DNA of 45,559 nt, taken from Verrucomicrobiota bacterium (GTDB lineage: Bacteria; Verrucomicrobiota; Verrucomicrobiia; Limisphaerales; UBA1100). The stretch lies in contig JASLKQ010000018.1 of the NCBI GenBank assembly GCA_030747505.1, forward strand, positions 1 to 45,559, read 5' to 3'. Position 1 is the first letter of the stretch, and the number at the start of each line of letters is the position of its first letter. The position numbers were made by a program, and so were the translations under genes. The notes below the pieces were generated by a model that was given only the letters and a program-made list of their open reading frames with translations, searched no databases and was not told the DNA's origin. Below are positions 10,013 through 27,003 of the stretch, one piece after another.

Positions 10013-10477
10013 ATGGGATTACTGGACAATTTATTCGGCAAAAAAGAAGCTTCAAACCCGGGGTCACCTCAGGAAACGGAGACACCCCAGGAACAGATCA
10101 ACATGGCCTGCGCTGTGCTGCTATTGGAGGTGGCTGAAGCGGATTACGCCGATAACCCCGAAGAAATCCGGACCATCATCAAGGTGTTGGAAGCTGAGCT
10201 AAAGCTGCGCCACTCGGATGTGCAAAATCTGCTGGCAAGAGCCAAGGCCGAGACCGCCGGAGCCACAGACCTTTTCCCCTACACCCATCTTTTGAACCAA
10301 AGACTGGATCACGGCCAAAAGTGCGCGATCCTGACGTCCATGTGGCGCGTGGCTTTTGCTGATGGGAACATCGACAAATATGAGGAGCTGCTCATCCGGC
10401 GCGCACATGACCTGTTGCGCCTGGATCACGCCGACTTCATTGCCGCCAAACAGGCTGCACGGCCAACGCAAATCTAG
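10013..10477 (+). CDS. TerB-like (tellurite resistance TerB family) protein
   Basis: A 154-residue helical protein resembling the TerB domain (COG4103-like). After a short variable head (MGLLDNLFGKK, then a proline/glutamate-rich stretch to about residue 28), it has the acidic metal-binding-type helices: QINMACAVLLLEVAEADYADNPEE and a second copy-like segment SMWRVAFADGNIDKYEELLIRRAHDLL. The acidic motifs EADYADNPEE and AFADGNIDKYEE match the two conserved TerB acidic patches. No tellurite operon surrounds it, so the name denotes fold only. Its stop codon overlaps the arsC stop in a shared CTAG (10474-10477). Confidence 0.85.
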   Translation: MGLLDNLFGKKEASNPGSPQETETPQEQINMACAVLLLEVAEADYADNPEEIRTIIKVLEAELKLRHSDVQNLLARAKAETAGATDLFPYTHLLNQRLDHGQKCAILTSMWRVAFADGNIDKYEELLIRRAHDLLRLDHADFIAAKQAARPTQI

Positions 10478-10899
10478 GACTTCAGTTCGCGGGCATAGGC
10501 CTCAAACTTTTCCCTGATTTCATCACGCACACGGCGAAAGACCATACGGATTTCCTCCTCACTACCCTCTGTTCTGGCCGGATCCTCGAAGGGCCAATGA
10601 TGTTTCTCTGATTGTGCCGGGAACACGGGACAAGCCTGATCAGCATTCCCGCAAACGGTAATGACCGTATGCACGTCGCGCTCAAGAAATTCATTCAGGT
10701 GCTTGGAGGTGTGGCCACTGATATCGATACCAATCTCGGCCATGACCTCCACGGCCACCGGATGCACAAATCCTGCAGGAACCGAACCCGCACTGGCCAC
10801 CTCGACTGCGTCCTTCACCGCCACACGCAAAATGCCCTCAGCCAAATGACTACGGCAACTGTTGCCGGTGCATAAGATAAGTAACAGGGGTTTGGACAT
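10474..10899 (-). CDS. arsC: Arsenate reductase, thioredoxin-coupled type
   Basis: A 141-residue low-molecular-weight phosphatase-fold protein. With the ATG at 10897-10899 the catalytic loop CTGNSCRS places the nucleophile at Cys10, and the two resolving cysteines fall at Cys83 and Cys90 in CGNADQACPVFP. This Cys10/Cys82/Cys89-type arrangement is that of thioredoxin-linked ArsC (Bacillus/Staphylococcus type), which reduces arsenate to arsenite in the cytosol; a plain phosphatase would lack the C-terminal pair. The longer open frame to 10950 would add residues not typical of the family. No arsR, arsB or acr3 lies beside it, so it is an isolated copy. It is convergent with, and overlaps by 4 bp, the TerB-like gene. 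Confidence 0.92.
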   Translation of the reverse strand: MSKPLLLILCTGNSCRSHLAEGILRVAVKDAVEVASAGSVPAGFVHPVAVEVMAEIGIDISGHTSKHLNEFLERDVHTVITVCGNADQACPVFPAQSEKHHWPFEDPARTEGSEEEIRMVFRRVRDEIREKFEAYARELKS

Positions 10900-11241
10900 G
10901 AAGGGAAACTGAAAACACCTCACGACAGTTTGTCGAGCCGTAGATGGCAAAAAGTTTGGTTTATAAACGCACCGGCACCGTATCAGGTTTAGGGGGTTGG
11001 GTGTAGTAATGGGCAGGACCTACTTGAGTTATATCGGTGCCGGGCGGTCCTGCATCCTCCCTGCGAAGGCCCGCTTGAGCTGCCTTTAACGTCCCGTGTC
11101 AATCGGAGCCAAGCCGCCTTCGTGGTTCATCTTATACGCCGCTTGCCTTAACAAGCCACGGGCAAGTTATTTTCTCCTGTCCAGAAGTTGTTGAACGGAT
11201 TGAACCCTTCCCGGTGAATAGCCGGAATTCAGAGAATAAGA
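10900..11241. other. Intergenic region, 342 bp, with dense inverted repeats
   Basis: No supported protein gene. Between 10972 and 11166 I find five inverted-repeat pairs: 10972-10980 with 11035-11043 (9 bp), 11013-11020 with 11046-11053 (8 bp), 11064-11081 with 11107-11122 (7+5+3 bp with small bulges), 11093-11098 with 11157-11162 (6 bp), and 11142-11147 with 11161-11166 (6 bp). The first two pairs interlock, as do the third and fourth. At 11200-11214 is a 15-nt sequence found again, with one difference, at 26989-27003. This could be a structured RNA or a dispersed repeat; strand of transcription is unknown. A G-rich stretch (about 10990-11017) is also present. Confidence 0.6.
11200..11214. 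repeat. Short motif shared with 26989-27003
   Basis: TTGAACCCTTCCCGG, one base different from the copy upstream of nrdA. It lies on the 3' side of the inverted-repeat block at 10972-11166. See that entry and the copy at 26989-27003. Confidence 0.5.
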
Positions 11242-11688
11242 TTACCAGAGAAAAGAAACCTGATCATCAAGCATCTCTTCACCCCGCCAGAGGGAGACCC
11301 GCCATGCTTCAGGCTGGCCAAAGCTACGGTAGGTCTTTTCATCAATCAGGATGGGCGTCCATTGGGCGCGAACCAAACCTGAACCGACCTTTTGCTCCAC
11401 CTGCATCGACTTGGAATTATCCTTGGAACTACGTAATTCGAGTCGCAGGATAACTTCCCCTCCTCCTCGCCAGTTCACATCATACCGGACACCATGCACC
11501 AGGCTGGGATTGGATCGCAGTTCTCTTTGGTACACATCCCGGTGCAGAAGCGTGGGGCCATCAGTGTGTTGGCCCTCGTTATCCAGATAATGAGGCAGGA
11601 CCTTGATAATGCCGGTTCCTGACGACTTCTTCGCCGTCCCGCAACCAGCGATGACCAAGAGAACCAATGCCAATCCAAAAAACCTCAT
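11242..11688 (-). CDS. Small lipoprotein of unknown function
   Basis: A 148-residue protein if started at ATG 11688 (protein start MRFFGLALVLLVIAGCGTAKK), which puts a lipobox VIAGC at residues 12-16 and makes it a lipid-anchored envelope protein. A longer start at 11709 would add seven residues. The mature part has a proline-poor beta-rich look, with the segment VKYDVNWRGG-like (seen as VRYDVNWRGGGEVILRLELRSS) followed by WTPILIDEKTYRSFGQPEAWRVSLWRGEEMLDD. I do not recognise the family. It is alone between the structured intergenic block and a 332-bp gap. Confidence 0.7.
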   Translation of the reverse strand: MRFFGLALVLLVIAGCGTAKKSSGTGIIKVLPHYLDNEGQHTDGPTLLHRDVYQRELRSNPSLVHGVRYDVNWRGGGEVILRLELRSSKDNSKSMQVEQKVGSGLVRAQWTPILIDEKTYRSFGQPEAWRVSLWRGEEMLDDQVSFLW

Positions 11689-12020
11689 GAACCAAAAAAT
11701 AATCGGCACCCAGCAAAAGGCAACGCCCGCACTTCAAAACTTATACCCATTGAAATCCATCAATAATCCAGTTTCCTGAAAAGATTGAGGGTTAGAGCCC
11801 TTATTACCTTATTAAAACGCAAATTATAGGGTTCATTTTGTGGGGCAAATACGTTGCAGAATCCCGAAAAACAGGTAAGGTTGTTGAGGAAAGCAGCTTA
11901 TTTTAAATTCTTTGTAACTTTTCTAATACAAGGGATATTAGATAGGGTGCGGGGCCGTCGGATTCCTCTATGTGAACCTGATGGTCTTTAGAGACTAAAT
12001 CCGAATCTAAATTATTTACC
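11689..12020. other. Intergenic region, 332 bp
   Basis: Divergent region between the lipoprotein (minus) and the DUF1501 gene (plus). AT-rich around 11870-11945. A weak promoter-like arrangement (TTGTAA near 11919 and TA-rich sequence about 17 nt later) may drive the DUF1501 gene, but the match is poor. No RNA gene, hairpin terminator or long repeat was recognised. Confidence 0.5.
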
Positions 12021-26988: not shown

Positions 26989-27003
26989 TTGAACACTTCC
27001 CGG
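26989..27003. repeat. Short motif shared with 11200-11214
   Basis: Fifteen nucleotides, TTGAACACTTCCCGG, differing at one base from TTGAACCCTTCCCGG at 11200-11214. Both copies sit at the edge of an inverted-repeat-rich intergenic block. This suggests two divergent members of one dispersed element. Only two copies were spotted by eye in this window. Confidence 0.5.

Follow-up and report, generated by a model that had tools for sequence, protein, structure and literature searches.

Pseudoknots of the H type are found in riboswitches of the SAM-II and preQ1 types. The HDV-like ribozymes are built on two interlocked helices, P1 and P2, whose 5' strands are separated by a very short junction; they possess in addition a P3 stem, a P1.1 GG and a catalytic J4/2 cytosine. 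A different group comprises the anti-Shine-Dalgarno RNAs of the RepG, RsaE and CcsR types, which are bacterial small RNAs that carry a C-rich loop and are built on simple hairpins. The housekeeping RNAs include tmRNA and 6S RNA, and tmRNA also holds pseudoknots.

The RNA described here lies in an intergenic block of the window (the whole stretch of DNA that was analysed, 45,559 nt) between a gene for a lipoprotein and an arsenate-reductase-like gene, arsC, and it has something in common with each of these systems. It shares with the HDV-like ribozymes a pair of interlocked helices in the same strand order and a very short junction between the 5' strands, but on inspection the P3 stem, the P1.1 GG and the context of the catalytic J4/2 cytosine are unrecognisable in its loops. 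Like the RepG, RsaE and CcsR types it is intergenic and presents a conserved unpaired C-rich stretch on a stable fold, although that fold is an H-type pseudoknot and not a simple hairpin. In two genera of the host family, g1 and g3, it resembles the SAM-II and preQ1 riboswitches in placing an H-type pseudoknot upstream of a metabolic or resistance gene; it differs from them in its larger size, its sequence, the lack of a match in Rfam and, in a third genus (g4), a position without arsC beside it. In size it is similar to or smaller than tmRNA and 6S RNA.

Fold and strand of the RNA

The block had been singled out in an earlier note for five inverted repeats, all of which were found again, and was taken there for either a structured RNA, with pseudoknots or alternative switching hairpins, or a dispersed structured repeat. 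Seven perfect repeats of at least 6 bp are present, compared with 3.4 +/- 1.8 in shuffled sequences, and 5.8% of shuffles reach seven; the repeat count by itself is only weakly unusual. An interlocked pair in which both repeats reach 8 bp arose in 0.9% of shuffles. The homologues decide whether the structure is real, and their comparison gives good support to a structured non-coding RNA of about 200 nt with an H-type pseudoknot at its core. In an alignment of 11 copies (A4) the conserved unit covers about 208 nt of the minus strand, read from 11172 to 10965 with approximate ends, and homologues were recovered by blastn and covariance models in 15 genomes. The strand had been left open in the earlier note. 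The RNA is assigned to the minus strand, which is also that of both flanking genes, because G-U pairs of P3 would turn into A-C mismatches if the RNA were read from the plus strand. The folding energy of the minus strand beats that of shuffles (z -2.7); the plus strand shows no such advantage (z -0.5). A coding region was rejected, and the RNA is read as non-coding, since no frame, sense or antisense, is free of stops in every copy and some indels among the copies have lengths not divisible by three. The RNA is presumed to be transcribed.

The best-supported part of the predicted fold is the H-type pseudoknot formed by P3 (11053-11046/11020-11013) and P4 (11043-11035/10980-10972). On the minus strand, P3 pairs GCAGGACC (11046-11053) with GGTCCTGC (11013-11020), and P4 pairs CCGGCACCG (11035-11043, extendable through 11046) with CGGTGCCGG (10972-10980), the last strand interlocking with P3 to close the knot. 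Each of the 14 complete copies retains both helices. Over nine distinct rows, g4 included and the incomplete copy in genome G014 excluded, pairing holds in 98.7% of cells, and across three genera 8 of the 17 pairs (5 of 8 in P3, 3 of 9 in P4) have changed on both sides. The rows of this count consist of the stem strands alone, cut by hand and joined, the same strands having been found in 14 copies. None of 500 shuffles reaches the value, a result that kinship among the genomes can inflate; slid controls, which are free of that weakness, are 19-48% paired. The helices are conserved in g4 with other sequences, as read at the loci of genomes G017 and G018. P3 is GCGGGGTC/GACCCCGC and GCGGAGTC/GACTCCGC in G017 and G018, and in P4 CACCGATGCCG pairs with CGGCATCGGTG, the partner in G018 being TGGCATCGGTG, which gives one G-U pair. 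Directly after P4 the g4 copies continue with TCTTTT or TTTTCTTTT. P4 together with this T-run would fit an unusual intrinsic terminator; the T-run is absent from the g1 and g3 copies.

The 5' domain contains P2, in which CGAAGGC (11116-11122, continued by GCTTG at 11114-11110) pairs with GCCTTCG (11064-11070, continued by CAAGC at 11077-11073). P2 is kept in g1 and g3. The earlier note had proposed a search for compensatory changes in homologues, and in g1 and g3 these are present in 4 of the 7 pairs of P2; they are present in P3 and P4 as well. The P2 slot of G017 holds a 10-bp helix of unrelated sequence (0.7% of shuffles are as good), and no helix was found in that slot of G018. P1 is tentative. 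It would pair CCCGTG (11157-11162) with CACGGG (11093-11098) and would interlock with P2. P1 consists of four base pairs, CGTG/CACG, that are invariant in g1 and g3, and a ragged, variable end; its counterpart in g4 is CCCGT/ACGGG, and it shows no covariation. An alternative partner for the CGTG of P1 is the CACG with which P2 begins. Because of this second partner and the lack of covariation, the crossing of P1 with P2 is not firm; it is plausible but not proven. Thus, of two pseudoknot-like overlaps pointed out earlier, the first stands as P3 with P4, whereas the second holds on its P2 side only. The fifth inverted repeat (11142-11147/11161-11166) is not conserved among homologues and is ascribed to chance. 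When all four helices are scored together in A4, 96% of cells are paired and 7 pairs have changed on both sides; 0 of 500 shuffles reach these values and slid controls fall to 31-43% paired.

Two unpaired stretches are also conserved. GGGAGG (11056-11061, minus strand) lies ahead of P3, and its GGAGG is kept in all three genera (alignments A4 and A7). The C-rich loop between the 3' strands of P3 and P4 (10981-11012, minus strand) reads CTACACCCA-CCCCC in most g1 and g3 copies, according to A4 and a per-copy table, and is among the most conserved unpaired parts of the RNA.

These features define a previously uncatalogued family of pseudoknotted RNA that is absent from Rfam 15. Comparison with the Rfam models, a check suggested in the earlier note, gave no family match: the window region yielded nothing at gathering score and nothing up to E 5, and the g3 and g4 copies gave only chance-level matches, all under gathering score. 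The landmarks of tmRNA had been reported as missing from the block, and the genome's tmRNA is indeed located elsewhere, on another contig (G000:C239:601-957), so that this candidate was rejected. No description of the RNA was found in the titles and abstracts of the literature. The RNA adds to Verrucomicrobia a family backed by covariation and built on an H-type pseudoknot core.

Distribution and gene neighbourhood

The RNA is present in 15 of the 20 genomes of the host family, one copy each: 6 of 9 in g1, 7 of 7 in g3 (counting the incomplete copy of G014) and 2 of 2 in g4. It was not found with covariance model R2 in the single genomes of g2 and g5. The three g1 genomes that do not have it are also without matches to arsC and the lipoprotein and are 50-88% complete. 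When the genus and family were searched with blastn, the block turned up in g1 and g3, once per genome, and the host genome itself has a single copy; the alternative of a dispersed repeat raised in the earlier note was rejected on these grounds. The g4 copies came to light through a weak match of model R1 in G017 under lax filters, which sits just behind the lipoprotein gene as located with the lipoprotein protein, and reading the loci in G017 and G018 revealed the same RNA. Model R2 scores the two at E 1e-11 and 8e-9, values that are not an independent test since both copies are in its building set.

Outside the family no credible copy was found. R1 with strict filters found nothing credible in 196 genomes of the order beyond the family, one weak match (G202, E 0.0055) looking like chance on reading, and R2 with laxer filters, run on 40 genomes, found nothing credible in 20 other families. 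Where the sequence that follows the lipoprotein gene was scanned, in about 60 genomes from other families, only matches at background rate or simple hairpins turned up. The filters of a first look may lose weak matches, and absence beyond the family is therefore provisional. When GTDB contigs were scanned with a pattern, the strong matches that could be confirmed were Verrucomicrobia, mostly metagenome-assembled, and matches in other phyla scored at chance level. Several of the relatives that carry the RNA are, we assume, marine Verrucomicrobia. At one locus in another family (L127, 1997-2060) the lipoprotein gene is followed after 50 nt by a hairpin, long but simple, with the arms GAGGCTCCCGCCGAACCC and GGGTTCGGCGGGAACCTC; it is unrelated to the RNA.

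The lipoprotein gene lies upstream (11242-11688, minus strand), with the ATG start at 11688 chosen and a GTG at 11709 possible. Its product matches nothing in Pfam or NCBIfam. The lipoprotein-like family occurs in 288 of 320 genomes of the order, with one match each. In g1, g3 and g4 the gene precedes the RNA on the same strand at a distance of about 40-170 nt; G009 (g2) has the gene without a recognisable RNA. The downstream gene arsC (10474-10899, minus strand) encodes an LMWPc protein that is arsC_pI258-like but falls under the cut-off of that model. It adjoins the RNA only in g1 and g3. In all 13 of their genomes that possess arsC, the gene has the RNA (in G014 a remnant of it) upstream on the same strand, usually about 60-110 nt away. 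Conservation of the linker that separates the RNA from arsC is poor, and in g3 its sequence is wholly different. Linkers in g3 (L017, L018, L021 and L022) contain runs of GGTTGA/TCAACC repeats with the potential to form hairpins.

The arrangement in g4 is different. There the RNA stays behind the lipoprotein gene and arsC is on another contig. The RNA would consequently belong to the lipoprotein locus and not to arsC. The next gene downstream of the RNA in g4 is convergent and encodes 678-727 aa, P4 and the T-run lying in between (L112 2749-3089 and L113 2208-2534). In G009, G017 and G018, arsC is located behind a gene for a Pit-like phosphate transporter, and an aquaporin-like gene lies between the two in G018 (L077) and G009 (L078); these names were read from translations. 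The copy in G014 (L025, G014:C376:2734-2877) is a natural partial copy that lacks its 5' half and has a partly broken P3 beside an intact arsC, which indicates that arsC can persist without the whole RNA.

Possible roles of the RNA

The best explanation, which is held tentatively and may well be correct, is that the RNA is a small RNA, either standing alone or derived from the 3' end of the lipoprotein mRNA, whose P3 and P4 core presents a C-rich loop that acts on other mRNAs. Three features led to this proposal: in g4 the RNA is independent of arsC and is followed by a T-run, and the unpaired GGAGG and C-rich stretch are conserved. The core is the pseudoknot of P3 and P4, with the unpaired GGAGG ahead and the C-rich loop enclosed, and P2, perhaps with P1, makes up a 5' domain. 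Tied to the lipoprotein locus, the RNA would be made on its own or released from the end of the lipoprotein mRNA. The pseudoknot may protect its 3' end, and in g4 P4 and the T-run may stop transcription. The exposed loop could pair with G-rich sites in other mRNAs, such as ribosome-binding sites, and in g1 and g3 the RNA might also be read, as a co-opted element, in the leader of arsC. Termination, targets and action in trans are all read from the sequence, the composition of the loop being what suggests the trans role. A sigma-70-like promoter and a standard short-loop terminator were looked for and not found. The short distance to the lipoprotein gene argues against a stand-alone RNA as it allows simple co-transcription, as does the fact that the g1 and g3 copies always precede arsC and have no T-run. 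A function, if one is discovered, could bring to light a novel regulatory RNA or a novel fold for ligand binding.

It is possible, but unlikely, that the knot is merely an element of the 3' untranslated region of the lipoprotein mRNA that ends or stabilises the transcript and has no separate function. The close position behind the lipoprotein gene on the same strand in three genera is consistent with this role, and so is the T-run after P4 in g4. However, the gene is widespread in the order, and neither the roughly 60 genomes scanned in other families nor g2 showed the RNA behind it; mere stabilisation would also leave the invariant unpaired GGAGG and C-rich loop unexplained.

The position of the RNA ahead of arsC in g1 and g3 at first suggested a riboswitch-like leader: arsC would be controlled by the pseudoknot in response to some ligand or ion with a connection to arsenate or phosphate. 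This reading accounts for the unbroken linkage in the 13 genomes and for the g1 genomes that lack both arsC and RNA, although those genomes are incomplete and without a lipoprotein match as well. It is weakened as the primary reading by g4, where the RNA persists without arsC beside it, the linkage thus being confined to g1 and g3. In addition, neither the linker nor the start region of arsC is conserved, inspection found no conserved expression platform, and G014 keeps arsC beside an RNA that has lost its 5' half and some of P3. Titles and abstracts in the literature describe no arsC riboswitch. Control of arsC is accordingly doubtful. The case is a warning that tight linkage to one gene within a genus can mislead; here the wider search detached the RNA from arsC.

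A history that links the stand-alone RNA with an arsC leader may also be imagined, in which the RNA began as the self-terminating g4 form at the lipoprotein locus and became an arsC leader in g1 and g3 as arsC moved in and the T-run was lost. We consider this improbable. If it were true, a stand-alone RNA would have been caught on its way to becoming a gene switch, the direction of such a change being hypothetical.

A self-cleaving ribozyme with HDV-like topology, in which P3 takes the place of HDV P1 and P4 that of HDV P2, is very improbable; the strand order matches and the junction between the 5' strands is almost absent, but the loops lack the recognisable HDV features noted above and the ribozyme models of Rfam give no match. 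That the inverted repeats arose by chance in a GC-rich spacer, a reading that the marginal count and the indifferent folding of the plus strand would permit, is refuted by conservation and compensation in three genera and deserves almost no credence.

Other elements in the window and genome

The block had also been said to contain a motif that recurs before nrdA, most likely TTGAACCCTTCCCGG at 11200-11214 compared with TTGAACACTTCCCGG at 26989-27003. The first of these lies outside the conserved RNA. Within the window alone the motif looks enriched (4 matches, 0.4 expected), but throughout the genome its near-matches are no commoner than those of a reversed control (26 vs 33), and it was rejected as a real element and attributed to chance.

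The identity of the RNA with 6S RNA was likewise rejected, the best candidate for the latter being on another contig (G000:C68:3627-3794) and under gathering score. That candidate is a probable 6S RNA in its own right; such a match occurs in 16 of the 20 genomes of the family, and only 4 of them pass the Rfam cut-off.
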